Source of the DNA: Sulfurospirillum barnesii SES-3
GTDB lineage: Bacteria > Campylobacterota > Campylobacteria > Campylobacterales > Sulfurospirillaceae
Direction of reading: 5' to 3'
Assembly: GCF_000265295.1 (NCBI RefSeq)
Contig: NC_018002.1
Location: 1,922,001 to 1,986,000, forward strand
Length of the DNA: 64,000 nucleotides
A program made the translations under genes and the position numbers. The notes under the pieces are model-generated. The model did not search any database. It was given only the letters and a program-made list of their open reading frames with translations, and was not told the DNA's origin. Below are positions 2,860 through 45,259 of the stretch, piece after piece. Every line of letters begins with the position of its first letter. The stretch's first letter is position 1.

Positions 2860-4467
2860 ATGGAGATTCAATCCATCAAAGATGTGAGAAATGTTAAGGG
2901 CTTTGGTATCAATGACTTTATGAAGCTTGTTGGGTGTGTTATTTTTGTCCTCCTTGTTATTTGGTATGTCTCAACCCTCTCTAGTGAAATTCCCAATAAA
3001 AATATTTTAATTATTGCGGCGATTTTTGGCGGCTACATGGCAATCAATATTGGCGCAAATGACGTTGCTAACAACGTAGGACCTACGGTTGGGGCACAAG
3101 CTGTGACTATTTTTGGGGCGGTGATTATTGCGGCAATTTTTGAAGCAGCAGGTGCACTCATTGCAGGCGGGAATGTTGTCAGTACCATTAAAAATGGCAT
3201 TATTGATACCAAAATGCTCAATGACACCAATGCGTTTATTTGGTTGATGATGGCATCCTTGCTGGCAGGGGCGGTTTGGCTAAACCTTGCCACGGCCTTT
3301 GGCGCACCTGTTTCAACCACGCATGCCATTGTAGGAAGCATTGCAGGGGCGGGTATGGCATCGGCTGGTTTTGATGTGGTACAGTGGCCAAAGCTAGGAG
3401 AAATCGTTTTTAGCTGGGTACTCTCTCCGTTTTTAGGAGGCGTTGTTGCTGCTGGTTTTTTGATGTTTATTAAAAAAAGTGTTATTTATCAAGAGGATAT
3501 GCAAGAAGCTGCCAAAAGAGTTATCCCATGGATGATTGCCATTATGACGTGGTCTTTTGGAACATACATCATTCTTAAAGGGGCTAAACAGCTTATTCAT
3601 ATGAATTTTCTCAATGCCGCTGGCATTAGCTTTATTTTAGCCATTGCCACCTATTTCCTCGTAAAAGCATCCTTGCACCGTAGTGAATCGCTTGAAAACA
3701 CTCGTGCGTCGATTAATCAATTTTTTAATATTCCGCTTATCTTCTCAGCAGCCCTTCTTAGCTTCGCACACGGTGCAAACGATGTCGCAAATGCCATTGG
3801 TCCCTTAGCCGCCATTTACGATGCGCTCTTTACAGGAGGAATCTCCACAAAAGCAGGTATTCCCGTGTGGGTCATGTTGGTAGGTGCTGGCGGTATCGTG
3901 GTGGGATTATCATTGTATGGCCCTAAACTGATTAAAACCGTGGGCAGTGAGATTACTGAACTTGACCAAATTCGTGCCTTTTGTGTTGCCATTTCTGCGG
4001 CACTGACCGTCATTATTGCCTCACAATTAGGATTACCTGTAAGTTCCACACACATTGCAGTGGGTGCGGTTTTTGGGGTGGGTTTTTTACGTGAATATTT
4101 GATGAAAAACCGTGTCAGAGAAACCGAAGAAGATTTTAAACAACGTAAACTTGATGAAGAGATGAATAAACTCGAAGAGTACAAACATGCTTTAGAATCG
4201 CTCGGAAAACTCAAAAGTGTCGACCCTCTTTTGGTAAAAACACTTATGGGGAAAATTAATGATGAAAAAGCTATTATAAAAAATATTTATGAAGGGGAGT
4301 TGGAGCTGAGTAAAATTGAGAAAAAAGCGCTTAAAGCGGTGCGTAAACACGAACTGGTGAAACGCTCTGCCCTTAAAATGATTTTGGCCGCATGGCTCAT
4401 TACTGTTCCTGCTTCTGCTTTGTTATCTGCAATTTTTTATTTTATGATTCGAGGTATGTTACTCTAG
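2860..4467 (+). CDS. pitA: PiT-family inorganic phosphate transporter
   Basis: Inner-membrane low-affinity phosphate permease of 535 residues with the duplicated PiT signature: GANDVANNVGP near residue 65 and HGANDVANAIGP near 304, each followed by a hydrophobic helix bundle with PVSTTHAI or PVSSTHIA motifs. There are about ten membrane segments. A roughly 110-residue hydrophilic, Lys/Glu-rich coiled insert (about residues 415-510) precedes the last membrane helix. AAAGGAAT precedes the ATG. The gene stands alone and ends in a strong terminator. TTACA repeats upstream suggest phosphate control, which would fit the pst, phoU and phoBR genes elsewhere in the window. Confidence 0.92.
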   Translation: MEIQSIKDVRNVKGFGINDFMKLVGCVIFVLLVIWYVSTLSSEIPNKNILIIAAIFGGYMAINIGANDVANNVGPTVGAQAVTIFGAVIIAAIFEAAGALIAGGNVVSTIKNGIIDTKMLNDTNAFIWLMMASLLAGAVWLNLATAFGAPVSTTHAIVGSIAGAGMASAGFDVVQWPKLGEIVFSWVLSPFLGGVVAAGFLMFIKKSVIYQEDMQEAAKRVIPWMIAIMTWSFGTYIILKGAKQLIHMNFLNAAGISFILAIATYFLVKASLHRSESLENTRASINQFFNIPLIFSAALLSFAHGANDVANAIGPLAAIYDALFTGGISTKAGIPVWVMLVGAGGIVVGLSLYGPKLIKTVGSEITELDQIRAFCVAISAALTVIIASQLGLPVSSTHIAVGAVFGVGFLREYLMKNRVRETEEDFKQRKLDEEMNKLEEYKHALESLGKLKSVDPLLVKTLMGKINDEKAIIKNIYEGELELSKIEKKALKAVRKHELVKRSALKMILAAWLITVPASALLSAIFYFMIRGMLL

Positions 4468-12353: not shown

Positions 12354-13391
12354 TTAAGGAAGAATGGTATGTTTTTTAACCATTTCTTCGGTTAGTTTTG
12401 TTTTAGCCAAAACCGCTGCTTGAACTTTTTTAAGCTCTTCAGCTGTCATTGGAACCAAACCAATGGTTTTTAAAACACCTTTTTGTCCAACCATTTTGTC
12501 ATCGACGTAAAGTTTAAAGAACTCATCCATCCCTTTAACGCTTGCTCTGTGAGAGTTTTTAGCGTAAATATAAAGGCTTCGTGAGATAGGGTATTTTCCG
12601 CTTGAGATATTCTCAGACGTTGGAGCAACGCCATCAACCGTTGCACCATTGATTTTATCACCATTTTCTTCTAAGAAGCTGTATCCAAAAATACCAAACG
12701 CTGCAGTATCTTTAGTCAATTTTTGAACGATTAAGTTATCATTCTCACCTGCTGGAACAAATGCGCCATCTTGACGAATCGCTTTGTATTTACCTTTTTT
12801 ATCGCCATACGCATCAAATTTTTTAGAAGCAGCTTCCATGACCATTTCATCAAATGAATCTCTGGTTCCTGATGTGGTTGGAGGACCATAAACTGTAATT
12901 TTTCTATTTGGCAATTTTGCATCAATTTCATTCCATGTTTTATACGGGTTTTTCATCAATTTGCCATCTTTACCTGGAACTTCATCTGCAAGCGCTAAGA
13001 AAAGGTGCTCTTTGCTTAGGGCAACTTCACCATTGATTTTTGATTGAGCAATCGCAATACCATCAAAACCAACCATCATTCCAGTAATGTCAGTTACACC
13101 ATTTTTAACACAAATTTCAAATTCATCGGCTTTAATTGGGCGTGACGCATTGGTAAAATCTGGGGTATCAAGACCATCACCTGCACAAAAAAGCTTCATA
13201 CCGCCACCTGTTCCTGTTGATTCAACAACGGGTGTTGGGTTTCCTGTTACGGCTTTAAACTCTTCTGCTACATAGCTTGTAAAAGGATACACTGTCGATG
13301 ATCCAACAATTTTAATCTGATCTCTTGCACTAGCACTAACGCTTAATGCTGCGACGCTTAATAGCGCTACTGCACTCATTTTTATCGTCAT
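12354..13391 (-). CDS. pstS: periplasmic phosphate-binding protein
   Basis: Phosphate-binding subunit, 345 residues from the ATG at 13391, which has GGAG seven bases upstream; the frame continues to 13403 without a ribosome site. The signal peptide is MTIKMSAVALLSVAALSVSA with cleavage after ASA. The mature N-terminus has the PstS phosphate loop VGSSTVYPFTSYVAEEF, then ESTGTGGGMKLFCAG and SGTRDSFDEM, the classic serine/threonine phosphate contacts. First gene of the operon. TTACA repeats and one TTACATGTAA copy precede it. Confidence 0.94.
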   Translation of the reverse strand: MTIKMSAVALLSVAALSVSASARDQIKIVGSSTVYPFTSYVAEEFKAVTGNPTPVVESTGTGGGMKLFCAGDGLDTPDFTNASRPIKADEFEICVKNGVTDITGMMVGFDGIAIAQSKINGEVALSKEHLFLALADEVPGKDGKLMKNPYKTWNEIDAKLPNRKITVYGPPTTSGTRDSFDEMVMEAASKKFDAYGDKKGKYKAIRQDGAFVPAGENDNLIVQKLTKDTAAFGIFGYSFLEENGDKINGATVDGVAPTSENISSGKYPISRSLYIYAKNSHRASVKGMDEFFKLYVDDKMVGQKGVLKTIGLVPMTAEELKKVQAAVLAKTKLTEEMVKKHTILP

Positions 13392-13410
13392 AATACACTC
13401 CATTTAAGAT

Positions 13411-13465
13411 TTTGTAACACGGTCATTGTAAAAAAATTTGGTTACAAGATGATTACATGTAACGA
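13411..13465 (-). promoter_or_regulatory. TTACA repeats before pstS (candidate Pho box)
   Basis: Reading toward pstS, the order is TTACATGTAATC, TTGTAACC, TTTTACAATGACCGTGTTACAA. The last holds two TTACA words 14 bases apart in the same TTACAAT-N7-TTACA form as before pitA. The TTACATGTAA element here (13453) may be an unrelated copy of the genome-wide palindrome. The role as PhoB site is inference from spacing and context. Confidence 0.35.
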
Positions 13466-25066: not shown

Positions 25067-25086
25067 AAGCACCCATTATGGTGCTT
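25067..25086. terminator. two-way terminator between hydrogenase and olsF-like genes
   Basis: AAGCACC-CATTAT-GGTGCTT forms a perfect 7-bp stem at the junction of the convergent operons; it overlaps the last codons of the minus-strand gene. Confidence 0.6.
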
Positions 25087-26800
25087 CATCTCCTTTAATG
25101 TAGCGTGTTTTTTTTGCTTCTTTAATTTTTGTTATATCCACTAAAATAAAGCTGTCAATACAATTGGCAAACTCTTTGTCAATATTAAAATCTAAAAAAT
25201 AAATACCCCCCTCATCGCATAATTCTGTGTATTGCTTGTACAAGGTCGGTACACATAAATTCATTAACGAGAGCTGCTCTTTTAATATCACGAAATCTTC
25301 CTTATAATTTTTCCCCGTAAAAAAAGAACGTGCTTCTTCTTGCTCAGCATGGCTTAGAAAATAGCCATTGCGTGCTTTAACCAAAGATTCATTTTTACTA
25401 AAATAGAGCGTATAAAACGTAAGAATAAGATTTTTTGCCACCTTAGGATAAACATCGCTTAAACTCACAGGTCCGTACATGTAACGAATATGTGGATTTT
25501 TATACAAATACGCACCAATGCCTTGCCACAAATAATCAAGCGCTCTACTTCCCCAATAACGAGGCTGTACAAAACTACGTCCTAACTCAATCGCATTATG
25601 CAAATAGGGCTCAAATGCAGGTGTAAATTCAAAAAGAGTTTGTGAATAAAACCCTTCCACACCAAAAAACTCACGAATAAAATTCGCTTCACCAATACGA
25701 TACGCCCCGACCACTTCCAACTCTTCTTCATCCCAAAGAACAATGTGCTTATAGTGCTTATCAAAAAGGTCAACGTCTCTTCTTCCCCCTGTGCCCTCTT
25801 CCACTTTTCTAAACGTAAACTCTCGAAGCCGTCCTATCTCTTTTAAAAGGGCTGAGCCATTTTCTGCTTCGTACAAATAGATTTTTTTACCATCACTGGT
25901 TTGCCCTAAAAGGGTTGATTGTTTCAACTCTGAGCGTATCATTTTACGCTCTTCTGGATGGGCAATGGCTTTTTGTGTTGCAAAAATACCTCGTTTTCCC
26001 TTACTGATTTTATAGAGATGTTTCTTCAAAAGTGTAATAAGAATTGCCTCGCTCATCTCACTCTTTTGTAGACTCTTATACGGAATCATCTCTCCCACTT
26101 TAAAACCAATCACTTTGGAACGCTTTTTAAACATTTCTCGTGCAAGCAAAAAGGTAGAAAGTTTTTTATTGACCATCGAAAAGGTATAAAAAAGCGGTGA
26201 ATTTTTTGCGTCAATAAAGACAGGTAACAAAGGAGCATTACTTTTTTGGGCAAACTTTAAAAAGCCTTTTTTCCATTTACTGTCTTTAATCCCTGTAGGA
26301 CATGCTCTTGAGACTTCACCTGATGGGAATACAATGAGCGCTTCATCTTTTGCCAGTGCTTCATACACTTTCTTAATGGACTCTTTGGTTGTTGCACCAC
26401 TGAGGTTATCAATAGGAATAAGCAGTTCGTTTAAAGGCTCTATTTGCATTAAAACATCATTGGCAAGCACTTTAATATCGCTTCTTATCTCTTTAATGAG
26501 CGAAATCAATGCTAAGGCATCTAATGCACCTAAGGGATGATTGGCAATAATAATCACCCTCCCTGAAGCGGGGATATTTGCCTTATCTTTATTGGAAATC
26601 GTGTACCCAAAATTAAAATACTCTAACACAGCTTCAACAAAATCAAACCCACGGTATGCCTCTCCACGACTTAAAAAGGTATTGATTTCTTCTTGATGAA
26701 GTACCTTTTTTAGAACATACACAAGGCTGTGACGCACGATAGCTGGATAAGAGAGAATGCTAGGATACTTGAGGCTTAAAGCCTTTTCAACATCAACCAT
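25076..26800 (-). CDS. two-domain acyltransferase, OlsF-like (ornithine lipid synthesis)
   Basis: 574 residues, starting at 26800, where AAGGAG is seven bases upstream (26806 has no spacing). Residues 1-270 form a PlsC/LPLAT O-acyltransferase domain: IIIANHPLGALDAL (catalytic His88, Asp94), IPIDNLSGATTKESI and FPSGEVSRACPTG. Residues 300-570 form a GNAT-like N-acyltransferase/hemolysin-type domain with RLREFTFRKVEEGTGGRRD, DEEELEVVGAYRIGEA, ELGRSFVQPRYWGSRALDYL and YMYGPVSLSD. An N-terminal O-acyl and C-terminal N-acyl arrangement is that of OlsF, which makes ornithine lipid from ornithine in two steps. Other acyl-amino lipids are possible products. Its divergence from phoU fits replacement of phospholipid during phosphate starvation. 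Confidence 0.7.
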   Translation of the reverse strand: MVDVEKALSLKYPSILSYPAIVRHSLVYVLKKVLHQEEINTFLSRGEAYRGFDFVEAVLEYFNFGYTISNKDKANIPASGRVIIIANHPLGALDALALISLIKEIRSDIKVLANDVLMQIEPLNELLIPIDNLSGATTKESIKKVYEALAKDEALIVFPSGEVSRACPTGIKDSKWKKGFLKFAQKSNAPLLPVFIDAKNSPLFYTFSMVNKKLSTFLLAREMFKKRSKVIGFKVGEMIPYKSLQKSEMSEAILITLLKKHLYKISKGKRGIFATQKAIAHPEERKMIRSELKQSTLLGQTSDGKKIYLYEAENGSALLKEIGRLREFTFRKVEEGTGGRRDVDLFDKHYKHIVLWDEEELEVVGAYRIGEANFIREFFGVEGFYSQTLFEFTPAFEPYLHNAIELGRSFVQPRYWGSRALDYLWQGIGAYLYKNPHIRYMYGPVSLSDVYPKVAKNLILTFYTLYFSKNESLVKARNGYFLSHAEQEEARSFFTGKNYKEDFVILKEQLSLMNLCVPTLYKQYTELCDEGGIYFLDFNIDKEFANCIDSFILVDITKIKEAKKTRYIKGDEAP

Positions 26801-26849
26801 ATCCATACTCCTTTTACATGTAATCTATGAGACGATTATAAGAGGAGTG

Positions 26850-26900
26850 CATTACAATATGGTAACGCTAAAGTGCTTTTTATGTTACCATATTGTAATG
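26850..26900. promoter_or_regulatory. perfect 17-17-17 inverted repeat between olsF-like gene and phoU
   Basis: CATTACAATATGGTAAC (26850-26866) and GTTACCATATTGTAATG (26884-26900) are exact inverted copies separated by a 17-base spacer. The element is centred between two divergent genes (starts at 26800 and 26943). The arms contain TTACAAT and GTAAC, words also present before pstS and, for TTACAAT, before pitA. Probably an operator read from both sides; a cruciform or RNA hairpin is the alternative. Confidence 0.7.
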
Positions 26901-26942
26901 ATTTCCAACTACAATGATGGCAAACTATTATAAGGAAAATGT

Positions 26943-27611
26943 ATGCTTCAAAACTATGAAGAAAGATTGATTGAGATCAAAAAAATGCTCTTAGACCTAG
27001 GTTCAGAGATTACCATGGCGAGCGAAAAAACACTCAGTGGTATGGAAAGTTTAGATGCTACACGCTTTGAATCTGCAAAAAACCTTTTAAAAAATGTTGA
27101 GAATCAAGCCAATGCCATTGATAATGAAATCGTTGTGGCTTTAGCCCTTTTTGGACCTGAGGCAAAAGATTTACGTAAAATGGTTGCCTACCTTAAAATC
27201 ACCAATGAAATGGTCAAAATTGCCGAAAATATCCGTAGTTTTAGTAAACGTATGGCATTGCATTTACAAAATGGTCTTCCTTTTGTTTCCTTACATGAAT
27301 ACTCCACACATCTGTGCAAAACAGCGATTCAAGCGGTGAATCTTTCCATTTCCACCCTTGACATTTCCGATAAAGAAGCCCTTGAAGATCTCTACCGTAA
27401 AGTCAAAGTTGAAGAGAGTAAAAGCGATGATTTGTACTCCATTTTGGAAAAAAATATTTTAAGTGACATTGCTAAAATGATTGACCAAAGTGCTGATTTT
27501 ATTCAAATTTTAAGTACCATGCGAAAGCTAGAACGTATGGCAGATCGAAGCGTAAACATTGTGCAATTAATGATTTTTGCTCGTGTGGGCGGAGAGATGA
27601 AGACGTATTAA
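26943..27611 (+). CDS. phoU: PhoU-type phosphate signalling protein
   Basis: A 222-residue all-helical cytosolic protein with the two three-helix PhoU repeats: LGSEITMASEKTLSGMESLD and ALFGPEAKDLRKMVAYLKI in the first, then the second repeat ending RKLERMADRSVNIVQLMIFA, with E/DxxxD metal-binding motifs. PhoU links phosphate transporters to PhoR. AAGGAAAA precedes the ATG. It is placed beside phoBR rather than in the pst operon. Confidence 0.88.
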   Translation: MLQNYEERLIEIKKMLLDLGSEITMASEKTLSGMESLDATRFESAKNLLKNVENQANAIDNEIVVALALFGPEAKDLRKMVAYLKITNEMVKIAENIRSFSKRMALHLQNGLPFVSLHEYSTHLCKTAIQAVNLSISTLDISDKEALEDLYRKVKVEESKSDDLYSILEKNILSDIAKMIDQSADFIQILSTMRKLERMADRSVNIVQLMIFARVGGEMKTY

Positions 27612-27728: not shown

Positions 27729-28400
27729 ATGAAGAAAACCATTTTAATCATCGAAGATGAAGAAGATTTACTCGAACTTTTAGAATACAACCTTCAAAAA
27801 GAGGGTTACGAAACGCTAGGCTTTCTCAATACTAAAAATGTCGAAAAATGTTTACAAGAAGAACCAATTGATTTGCTCATTGTCGATCGTAATCTTCCAG
27901 GCATGGAAGGAAGCGAATTTGTTCAAACACTCCGCCAAAAAGGATTTATGCAAGCGGTCATTTTTGTGACCGCTAAAGACAGTGATGCGAACATCGAAGA
28001 GGGATTTTTACGAGGGTGTGATGATTATCTTACCAAACCGTACAATATGAAAGAGCTTTTGCTTCGTATTAAAGCCATTTTAGCACGCACCACCCCCAAA
28101 CAAAACAGCACCCTCTCTTATCGGGATTTGGTGCTTGATTTGGAAGCGCATACCTTACATGTAAACACCAAAGCCGTTGAACTTACCAAACTTGAATTCG
28201 ACCTTTTGCGCACACTGATTGAAAATAAAAATTCTGTCTTAAGTCGAGAGTTTTTGCTCGAACATGTATGGAAAAGCGATGATTTTTTTCAAGATAAAAC
28301 CGTCAATGTGGCGATTAACCGTCTTAAAGCCAAAATTGACCCTACTAAAGAAAAAGAGTATATCAAATCGGTTTGGGGCGTAGGATACAGCCTATGCTAA
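27729..28400 (+). CDS. phoB: response regulator, PhoB-like
   Basis: A 223-residue OmpR/PhoB-family regulator. The receiver has the acidic pocket IEDEED, the phosphorylated Asp53 in IVDRNLPGMEG, the VTAKD threonine and the DDYLTKP lysine; the C-terminal winged helix ends in KTVNVAINRLKAKIDPTKEK and SVWGVGYSL. The start is the ATG at 27729 (GGGGTAA upstream); the TTG at 27711 is rejected. The regulator is named by context: it sits between phoU and a PhoR-like kinase. A TTACATGTAA copy occurs at 28155. Confidence 0.85.
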   Translation: MKKTILIIEDEEDLLELLEYNLQKEGYETLGFLNTKNVEKCLQEEPIDLLIVDRNLPGMEGSEFVQTLRQKGFMQAVIFVTAKDSDANIEEGFLRGCDDYLTKPYNMKELLLRIKAILARTTPKQNSTLSYRDLVLDLEAHTLHVNTKAVELTKLEFDLLRTLIENKNSVLSREFLLEHVWKSDDFFQDKTVNVAINRLKAKIDPTKEKEYIKSVWGVGYSLC

Positions 28401-29794
28401 TGCTTCACCAACACATCACCCGTGCACTTTTTGCTCTTTTCTTAGGGGCACTGTTCTTCTCTAGTTTGGTCAGTTACTTTGCTATTAAAAACGATAACAT
28501 TGAGACATATAAGCGAGAACTGATTTCGCATATACGTATTATCAAACAACAACTCTCCACCACCACCGACCTTGAGGCTTTTGCAAAAATCATCAAAGAC
28601 GGAGCGGGTATCCGTTTTACATTGATTGATGAAAACGGTGTGGTCTTGGTTGATAGTGATAAAGAGAGTGAAAGCATGGACAATCATGCTAGACGTGAAG
28701 AAGTGATTCAAGCACACAAAGTAGAGTTTGCACACGCCATTCGTTTTTCGGATTCGGTAAAGAGCGATTTTCTCTACGTTGCCCACCGCTTTCAACACGA
28801 AGAGCGCACCTTGTTTATACGTCTTGCTATGAATATTGGCTCAATCATGCATAATTTTTATCTACTGTGGGTGAAAATTGCGCTTATTTTTAGCCTCACC
28901 CTGCTTATAGGACTCTATGGGGCGTATCATTTAAGCAAGCAAATTCGCCATGAAATTGACAAAATTATTGCCAACCTTCAACAAATCGCTGATAAAGAGT
29001 ACAAAATCACCCTCTCTTCTCACTTTTGTTTAGAGTTTTTAGAAATTGCTAACTACCTTAAACGCCTTGCTACAAAATTAGAAAAAAGAGCCAAACAAAA
29101 ACGTAAATACACCGCAAAAATAAAACTCATCTCACAACAACGAAGCGATGTCATCTCCGCCATTAGTCATGAGTTTAAAAATCCGATTGCTTCCATTATG
29201 GGGTACGCGCAAACGCTTTTGGAAGACCCTAATGCAAACACGCAAATTAAAGAGCGCTTTTTAGGTAAAATTGTCCAAAATGGACAAAAAATTTCACACA
29301 TGATAGACCGTTTAGCCCTTACTACCAAATTTGAAAATGGCGACTTTACGACCCAAAATTCTACGTTTGATCTTGCTAAAATGAGCCGTGAAATTGCACA
29401 AACCTTTCGAGAAAAACACCCCTTAAGAACCATCGAATGCAACATGCCTGAATACTGTATGGTCAATGCTGATCGCACCATGATAGAACTGGTTATCTCT
29501 AATTTAATCGACAATGCGCTTAAATACTCGGATGATACCATTAAAGTTTACATGGAAAATGAGGCGTTACATGTAAAAGACAATGGCGTGGGAATTAAAG
29601 AAGATGACATTGAAAAAGTCACCCAAAAATTTTACCGTTCAAACTCGCATTCATGGGATAATTCCATGGGATTAGGCTTAGCACTGGTCAATTACATTCT
29701 AAAACTACACAACACCAGCCTAGAGATACACAGCAGCTTTGGTGTTGGCTCCGATTTTTCATTTAAATTGCCTTCAGACAATCCTACGCTTTAG
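28394..29794 (+). CDS. phoR: sensor histidine kinase, PhoR-like
   Basis: About 466 residues. TM1 near residues 8-30, a periplasmic loop of about 120 residues, TM2 near 150-172, then DHp and catalytic domains: ISHEFKNPIASIMGYAQTLL (His near 258), the N box NLIDNALKYSDD, G1 VKDNGVGI and G2 GLGLALVNYIL. It overlaps phoB (ATGCTAATG), so the two are co-translated. PhoR proteins of enterobacteria lack a large periplasmic domain; this one has one, as in the C. jejuni PhosS-type kinases. Phosphate as the signal is inferred from phoU and phoB next door. Confidence 0.85.
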   Translation: MLMLHQHITRALFALFLGALFFSSLVSYFAIKNDNIETYKRELISHIRIIKQQLSTTTDLEAFAKIIKDGAGIRFTLIDENGVVLVDSDKESESMDNHARREEVIQAHKVEFAHAIRFSDSVKSDFLYVAHRFQHEERTLFIRLAMNIGSIMHNFYLLWVKIALIFSLTLLIGLYGAYHLSKQIRHEIDKIIANLQQIADKEYKITLSSHFCLEFLEIANYLKRLATKLEKRAKQKRKYTAKIKLISQQRSDVISAISHEFKNPIASIMGYAQTLLEDPNANTQIKERFLGKIVQNGQKISHMIDRLALTTKFENGDFTTQNSTFDLAKMSREIAQTFREKHPLRTIECNMPEYCMVNADRTMIELVISNLIDNALKYSDDTIKVYMENEALHVKDNGVGIKEDDIEKVTQKFYRSNSHSWDNSMGLGLALVNYILKLHNTSLEIHSSFGVGSDFSFKLPSDNPTL

Positions 29795-42903: not shown

Positions 42904-43655
42904 GAAATAATCTTAAACTCCCCATCATACGTCTCGACAATAGCGGTACACGACTCCACCCAATCGCCACAGTTTAGGTACTTTATACCCTCAATTTCTC
43001 GCATCTCCGCCTTGTGAATATGCCCACAAATGACTCCATCGTAGTGATTACGTCTGGCATGTTCACTTAAAATCGCTTCAAAATCGGTAATAAACGAAAC
43101 CGAACTTTTCACATGGTCTTTGACATACTTGGAGAGTGACCAGTGACGTTGGTAGCGCAATCTTTTACGACACCACGTTAAAACTTGGTTTACATGTAAC
43201 AGCATATCGTACCCAACATCCCCCAAAAGGGCTAACCAGCGTTTGGTCATTGTGACACTGTCAAAAAAATCACCATGTGCGATGTAATACCGCTCATTGC
43301 GAAGACTTACATACGCATACTCATCCCGAATTTCAATGCTATCGCCCAATGCTAAAGGCAAAAAAGAGCGTAAAAACTCATCGTGATTGCCTGTAATGTA
43401 AGTGACCTTTGTCCCTTTTCGTGCCTTTCGCAACACTTTTTGAATGACATCTGAGTGCGATTGCGCCCATTTCATCTTACGCTTAATCGCCCACCCATCA
43501 ATAATATCGCCCACTAAAAAAAGGTGCTCACACTCGCTGCGTCTTAAAAACTCCAACAACTCATGCGCTTGGCAAAAGCGTGTGCCTAAATGCACGTCAG
43601 AGATAAAAATAGAACGAAATGCAAACACCTCTTCATCATTGGCTATTGAACTCAT
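42888..43655 (-). CDS. LpxH-like metallophosphoesterase
   Basis: A 255-residue calcineurin-like phosphoesterase. Metal motifs: FISDVHLGTR, VGDIIDGW, ITGNHDEFLR, AHGDFFD and CGHIHKAEM. This set is that of UDP-2,3-diacylglucosamine hydrolases, the lipid A step after LpxD, although this long-loop subgroup is not proven to be LpxH. It overlaps the PIN-PhoH gene by 4 bases (ATGA). Confidence 0.82.
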   Translation of the reverse strand: MSSIANDEEVFAFRSIFISDVHLGTRFCQAHELLEFLRRSECEHLFLVGDIIDGWAIKRKMKWAQSHSDVIQKVLRKARKGTKVTYITGNHDEFLRSFLPLALGDSIEIRDEYAYVSLRNERYYIAHGDFFDSVTMTKRWLALLGDVGYDMLLHVNQVLTWCRKRLRYQRHWSLSKYVKDHVKSSVSFITDFEAILSEHARRNHYDGVICGHIHKAEMREIEGIKYLNCGDWVESCTAIVETYDGEFKIISWLEH

Positions 43656-45049
43656 GTGCTCTTATCACTCTCCCCAAAAATTTCATCGGCAAAGTGCGAA
43701 AACTTACCACGTACCGATTTATCCAACTCAATCGCAAAAAGCGAGATGTGCGTCTGCTCTTTTTTGGTCTGCTTTAAAAGCGAGGTCAAGCCATTGTTAA
43801 AGCGGTTAAGGTACATATTGTCAATTTGGCGGTTTGAGCCAATCACAATGGCTTTACAGTTGTTATCAAGCCTCGATAAAATAAGCTGTGTCGTGTTGTT
43901 AGAGCTGTTTTGCCACTCATCTAAAATAACAATGGCATTGGAAAGTGTTCGACCACGAGCTTCTCCAGGCCAAAGTTTTTCGATGTTGTATTTGGTGATG
44001 AGCTCTTGCACTTTTTTTTCAATTGCCATTTGAGGCTCTTGGGTATTGTCACGTTTTTTCATACGTTTTTTGGCAATAAACTCTAAGGTATCGTAAAGTG
44101 CCATGTTATAAATACGAAATTTCTCGTCATTTCCTGAGAGATACCCCACATCTGCACCCTTATCAACACTCTCAATGGAGTTGCGCACATAGACAATTTT
44201 TTCGTAACTCCCTTTGCTGACTAAGCGCATCGCTGCCACAAATGCCATCAAGGTTTTACCACTTCCAGCTCTGGCGTCAATGACATGAATATCGTACATG
44301 TTAGAAAGCAGTGCTTTCATAAAAAACTTCTGTTTGAGGTTGATGGGTTTAACCTCTAAACCTCTAAAGTCAAGCTCTTCATTGAGCATATAAATAATCC
44401 CCGCAGGCGAGATAATCGCATGTTCAGAATTGCCATCAGGACTGACAAACTCATAGCAATAATTACTGCTTTTATGCTCAGGATCAAATTCGCTGATAAG
44501 TTTTTTATCTAAGGTATTAAAGAGTGCTGAATCAAGTGGAAGCTGTTTGACAAACTCAAACTCAGGTACATCGCTTCGATCTTCTCTTAAAGACTCCACC
44601 GTGACGTTGTAAAAAAGCCCAAACATACGGGCATACACGTCCAAAGAGAGAAAAATTACTTTATAATCTACATAATACTCCTGCGCCCCCGAGGCAACCT
44701 CAAGAATACGTTTATCGTTGGACTCGTTGATAAATTGGGAGTCAATATCGGAAGTATAGAGAGTTTTGGAGAAGAGGTGAATGGCAATATCATCATCATA
44801 GCGCATCTTCACCACACGGAAAATCTCACCGCTATCGACCTCTTCCACCTTGCACGAAGCAAGCATACGAGCGAAACTTCTAGCCTGATAGCCTAGCTCA
44901 CTAAAGTTCTTTTTAAAATCCTCTAGTTCTATGAGCACCGTCTCGGGAATCACAATGATGTTGTTGCCACCATCACACAACTCTTTGATGAAATTGGTAT
45001 TGTGCAAGATAATGTTGGTATCAAGCACATAAACTTTGTTGACTGACAT
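43652..45049 (-). CDS. PIN-PhoH family ATPase/ribonuclease
   Basis: A 465-residue protein starting at 45049 (AAGGAAGTGGG upstream). N-terminal PIN nuclease domain, residues 1-140: VYVLDTNIILH carries the first Asp. C-terminal PhoH ATPase domain: Walker A DARAGSGKTLMAF and Walker B NAIVILDEWQN. PhoH2-like proteins combine RNA helicase and ribonuclease activity. Despite the name, no phosphate link is implied. It leads a tight three-gene run with the LpxH-like and patatin genes. Confidence 0.88.
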   Translation of the reverse strand: MSVNKVYVLDTNIILHNTNFIKELCDGGNNIIVIPETVLIELEDFKKNFSELGYQARSFARMLASCKVEEVDSGEIFRVVKMRYDDDIAIHLFSKTLYTSDIDSQFINESNDKRILEVASGAQEYYVDYKVIFLSLDVYARMFGLFYNVTVESLREDRSDVPEFEFVKQLPLDSALFNTLDKKLISEFDPEHKSSNYCYEFVSPDGNSEHAIISPAGIIYMLNEELDFRGLEVKPINLKQKFFMKALLSNMYDIHVIDARAGSGKTLMAFVAAMRLVSKGSYEKIVYVRNSIESVDKGADVGYLSGNDEKFRIYNMALYDTLEFIAKKRMKKRDNTQEPQMAIEKKVQELITKYNIEKLWPGEARGRTLSNAIVILDEWQNSSNNTTQLILSRLDNNCKAIVIGSNRQIDNMYLNRFNNGLTSLLKQTKKEQTHISLFAIELDKSVRGKFSHFADEIFGESDKST

Positions 45050-45259
45050 CCCACTTCCTTTCATACGATAATTCTATGCAAACATTATAACAACTTCGTA
45101 ACAAAAAAAATTGTTTTTAAGCGTATTTTATAGGCGCAGACACGCAGACTTAAAGAGGCATCATCTCTTTTTACAAAAGTGTGTGCTTCTTTGCATAGAC
45201 CTATATACTTCTTCTATAAACCTGTAACACCTAAGCTCGGCTTGGGTATGATTTCATTT

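Follow-up and report, generated by a model that had tools for sequence, protein, structure and literature searches.

The inverted repeat described here lies in the control region between olsF and a phoU-like gene, which are transcribed divergently, within a 64-kb window (the whole analyzed stretch of 64,000 nt) of the Sulfurospirillum barnesii SES-3 genome, a single contig of 2,510,109 bases. Genes for a PhoB-like response regulator and a PhoR-like kinase stand behind phoU. The features referred to below, numbered from the first base of the window, are as follows.

12354–13403, − strand: pstS
13425–13456, − strand: pstS Pho box with −10 element (GTAATCATCTTGTAAC, 10 nt, TACAAT), from the pattern match and comparison of pstS regions
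25076–26806, − strand: olsF, bifunctional ornithine lipid synthase (NCBIfam NF052615 equivalog, 834.5 bits against a cut-off of 620)
26835–26840, − strand: TATAAT, the predicted −10 element for olsF, 10 nt past the box
26846–26867, − strand: olsF-facing predicted Pho box, two 11-bp units CGTTACCATAT TGTAATGCACT, with direct-repeat geometry and half-sites conserved in 19 loci
26851–26866, − strand: core GTTACCATATTGTAAT of the olsF-facing box
26867–26883, no strand: 17-nt spacer that sets the four half-sites in an 11-22-11 bp register
26883–26904, + strand: phoU-facing predicted Pho box, two 11-bp units TGTTACCATAT TGTAATGATTT, nearly invariant in the genus
26884–26899, + strand: core GTTACCATATTGTAAT of the phoU-facing box
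26910–26915, + strand: TACAAT, the predicted −10 element for phoU, 10 nt past the box
26943–27611, + strand: phoU-like gene (Pfam PF01895 PhoU; TIGR02135 below its cut-off)
27729–28400, + strand: PhoB-like response regulator of the OmpR/PhoB family, the proposed binder (Response_reg and Trans_reg_C domains)
28373–29794, + strand: PhoR/PnpS-like sensor histidine kinase (HisKA and HATPase_c domains; PnpS and PhoR models best, below cut-off)

The left arm, CATTACAATATGGTAAC, occupies positions 26850–26866, and its exact reverse complement forms the right arm at 26884–26900, with 17 bases between them. The original prediction of a perfect 17-17-17 inverted repeat between divergent genes thus held in coordinates, letters and gene orientation. 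This is the sole perfect inverted repeat of the window whose arms measure at least 14 bp, with spacers of up to 60 bases considered. First-order Markov shuffles of the window yielded on average 0.2 inverted repeats with arms of at least 12 bp and none with arms of at least 13 bp; a rough extrapolation from these shuffles gives an expected count of ~3 × 10−5 for 17-bp arms, which agrees with the earlier claim that the chance odds are tiny. A genome-wide search that allowed at most one mismatch found no further copy of the arm beyond the olsF/phoU locus.

Each arm is in itself a direct repeat with an 11-bp period, GTWAY-N6-GTAAY, and in both arms exactly 10 nt separate the last GTAAY from the hexamer (TACAAT or TATAAT). 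When every distance was counted, TANNNT stood at exactly 10 nt in 17/17 phoU, 17/17 olsF and 12/12 pstS sequences; none of the remaining distances was common to all members of any of these three sets. The centers of the four half-sites at the locus are 11, 22 and 11 bp apart. In E. coli phoA, the corresponding letters, confirmed against phoA records, are TGTCAC, 10 nt and TATAGT, the last of which is the −10 element. As in this PhoB-dependent promoter, two 11-bp direct-repeat units replace the −35 element and end 10 nt before the −10 element; the half-site, in contrast, reads GTWAY in Sulfurospirillum and GTCAY in E. coli, and the olsF and phoU boxes, unlike that of phoA, stand back to back, serving divergent genes and separated by a spacer conserved at 17 nt. 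A Pho box is defined by two 11-nt direct-repeat units, with a consensus that differs between species (PMC4415409). Two such 11-bp units are present in both arms and before pstS, phoX and phnD-like genes, and the fixed 10-nt distance places them where a −35 element would stand. The half-site letters, TGTWAY at Sulfurospirillum boxes and TGTCA in E. coli, do not agree; this counts against the assignment but does not decide it, given a consensus known to vary between species (PMC4415409).

Sites were collected genome-wide with pattern searches in 24 Sulfurospirillum genomes. The box-plus-−10 pattern gave 113 matches, about 40 of them the olsF/phoU sites themselves, against 22 for the reversed pattern. 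Genes downstream of recurring sites include several with functions in phosphate acquisition, namely pstS, a second pstS (pstS2), two PhoX-family phosphatases and a phosphonate-binding protein; certain species also have an EAL-CBS protein gene at this place. The half-site search upstream of other phosphate genes that had been suggested as a check thus returned boxes of the same geometry. Regions upstream of pstS, retrieved through similarity of the encoded protein and independently of the motif, contained 15 GTWAY pairs at 11 bp and no more than two at any other distance, the half-site pairs being GTAAT/GTAAC, GTAAC/GTAAT or GTAAT/GTAAT. The original prediction had further noted that the arms share TTACAAT and GTAAC with the pstS upstream region; a box of the same geometry does precede pstS, but the shared unit is GTWAY-N6-GTAAY and not TTACAAT. 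A search of the literature library used here returned no paper on a Sulfurospirillum Pho regulon.

Searching for the arm across the same 24 genomes showed the phoU-side arm almost unchanged throughout the genus; almost every genome also has a variant olsF-side arm close by. When the loci were aligned without gaps, conservation fell on the half-sites (GTTAY and GTAAY), on a −10-like hexamer at either end and on the length of the spacer. Both arms were present at 19 distinct loci, of which 18 have a spacer of 17 bases and one a spacer of 16, so that arms and spacing are both kept across the genus, the comparison by which the original prediction had proposed to be judged. The two arms are identical to each other at one of these loci only, that of S. 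barnesii SES-3; elsewhere 12–14 of 16 core bases match, and the differences fall mostly within the middle six bases. Across the phylum, 397 genomes from 68 genera were sampled. Outside Sulfurospirillum, a divergent box pair at exactly 17 bases occurred in two genera of the same family, in both cases again between olsF and phoU, and was absent from all other sampled genera; the reversed control pattern had no match in the 397 genomes. In family members where phoU has a neighbor other than olsF (L201 and L202), the phoU box is kept on its own, at the distance seen elsewhere. Each box thus goes with its gene, and the inverted repeat is a consequence of divergent gene order.

Two fragmentary genomes deviate from this layout. 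One (G019; L044:94–186) has 61 bases between the outer boxes, and the 44 extra bases, equal to four 11-bp units, hold a third GTWAY pair, ATTACAAATTTATAAC (L044:138–153), located 17 bases from the olsF box. The other (L008) has an intact phoU box but lacks the one on the olsF side, and its flanking sequence cannot be aligned to the spacer of the remaining loci; this reflects either a deletion or an assembly error.

On the basis of these patterns, we estimate a probability of roughly 87% that the inverted repeat represents two outward-facing Pho boxes that stand back to back within the control region common to olsF and phoU. The functional unit is the single arm with its direct repeat and not the symmetric 51-bp element, and the perfect symmetry of the arms looks like a species-level coincidence atop two selected boxes. 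The element is a real and well-conserved example of an already known kind of switch.

Other explanations were weighed against the same data. At the olsF/phoU locus, each arm is near-palindromic (GTTAC...GTAAT), a property kept in relatives, and could accordingly be read as an operator TTAC-N6-GTAA for a homodimer of another family (TetR, MarR or Crp/Fnr type), with two dimers controlling the divergent genes. The sites at phoX, pstS2 and phnD-like genes, however, read GTAAT-N6-GTAAT, a direct repeat without dyad, and only a direct repeat fits all sites including those at pstS. Twofold symmetry is thus not a property of the regulon's half-sites, and a palindromic operator is therefore ruled out as their common element; the 10-nt distance to the −10 hexamer also suits an activator box rather than such an operator. 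We consider binding by dimers of this kind improbable.

An RNA hairpin (terminator or attenuator) or a DNA cruciform would account for the strong predicted fold (−25.5 kcal/mol, z −7.4). Against this, the repeat is located upstream of both predicted −10 elements, and hence outside both predicted transcripts, and no terminator is expected between divergent genes. Even with G–U pairs allowed, the 16-bp stem contains one to three mismatched pairs in 12 of the 19 loci, while half-sites and spacing stay. A conserved hairpin or terminator does not match this record of lost pairing, and we rate a structural role as highly improbable. The confinement of perfect arm identity to S. barnesii SES-3 might point to a palindrome that arose by chance, or to a mobile or repetitive element, but the repeat occurs at a single genomic locus, and both sites are conserved at the same position in the genus and in two more genera. 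This refutes a chance or repetitive origin for both sites, leaving coincidence as an option only for the exact identity of the arms, and we assign the idea next to no probability.

The two-Pho-box reading supports the earlier proposal that a single regulator may control both directions. Because the arms are conserved, other phosphate genes have a box of equal geometry upstream and both arms occupy the activator position of their own predicted promoters, one phosphate regulator acting both ways is the best reading. The likely binder of both boxes is, judging from gene neighborhood, the response regulator encoded at 27729–28400. PhoB models are among its best matches, yet score below their curated cut-offs; the protein shares 31% identity with E. 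coli PhoB, and several recognition-helix positions differ. One may speculate that these differences go with the GTWAY half-site.

In the proposed mechanism, each box would take the role of the −35 element at its promoter, exactly 10 nt before the −10 element. Low phosphate would activate the kinase and the regulator, and the phosphorylated PhoB-like protein would then occupy each box as two molecules arranged head to tail and direct RNA polymerase away from the center, toward olsF on the left and phoU on the right. Rightward transcription would probably include the regulator's own gene and that of the kinase, with the three genes forming a putative operon. Induction of olsF would lead to replacement of phospholipid by ornithine lipid, which is phosphorus-free, as is known of the PhoB-dependent V. 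cholerae olsF (PMC12186959). Induction of phoU, probably joined by that of the genes for regulator and kinase, would provide feedback on signaling. If true, one regulator switches on both a gene for a phosphorus-free membrane lipid and the phosphate-sensing genes. The conserved 17-nt spacing places all four half-sites on one 11-bp grid, on which four protomers could form a single cooperative complex along one DNA face and couple the induction of olsF and phoU, rather than the boxes serving as two separate activator sites. We regard such an assembly as unlikely. If the element has a novel side, it might lie in the fixed 11-22-11 register, through linked occupation of the two boxes.

Related control is known from other bacteria. 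In Campylobacter jejuni, a member of the same phylum, two reports describe two-component control of phosphate-uptake genes and phoX by PhosS/PhosR (PMC9449129, PMC3197622), resembling the control of phosphate uptake and phoX predicted here. For Vibrio cholerae, the available text of a further report describes PhoB-dependent expression of olsF (VC0489) at low phosphate (PMC12186959). The S. barnesii gene likewise encodes an OlsF-type ornithine-lipid synthase, with PhoB dependence shown in V. cholerae and predicted here; that same part of the V. cholerae report does not mention a control region shared with a divergent phoU (PMC12186959). For Sulfurospirillum and close relatives, our data provide a usable predicted Pho-box definition, GTWAY-N6-GTAAY followed after 10 nt by TANNNT, and a predicted phosphate-starvation regulon that includes ornithine-lipid synthesis, with a candidate regulator named. 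They also illustrate that a striking perfect inverted repeat can consist of two direct-repeat sites facing apart.

The searches returned several further sites. A match upstream of a CHAD-domain gene in this genome (L054) was discounted, as it falls within an extended open reading frame of 327 codons and in sequence that resembles a hairpin. In three relatives (L121, L133 and L140), a Pho box with −10 element precedes an EAL-domain gene, which in L133 also encodes a CBS domain, and suggests a phosphate link to cyclic-di-GMP in these three. Just upstream of the start codon of pit (2860–4467, + strand), a Pho-box-like direct repeat, GTAATCACACTGTAAT (2829–2844, − strand), points away from the gene; the repeat recurs at 10 of the 11 pit orthologues in the genus and may be a site at which the regulator represses pit. 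Lastly, a weaker match (GTTACGAAGTTGTTAT, 10 nt, TAGAAT; 45071–45102, − strand) is located directly before a PIN-PhoH-like gene (43652–45064).
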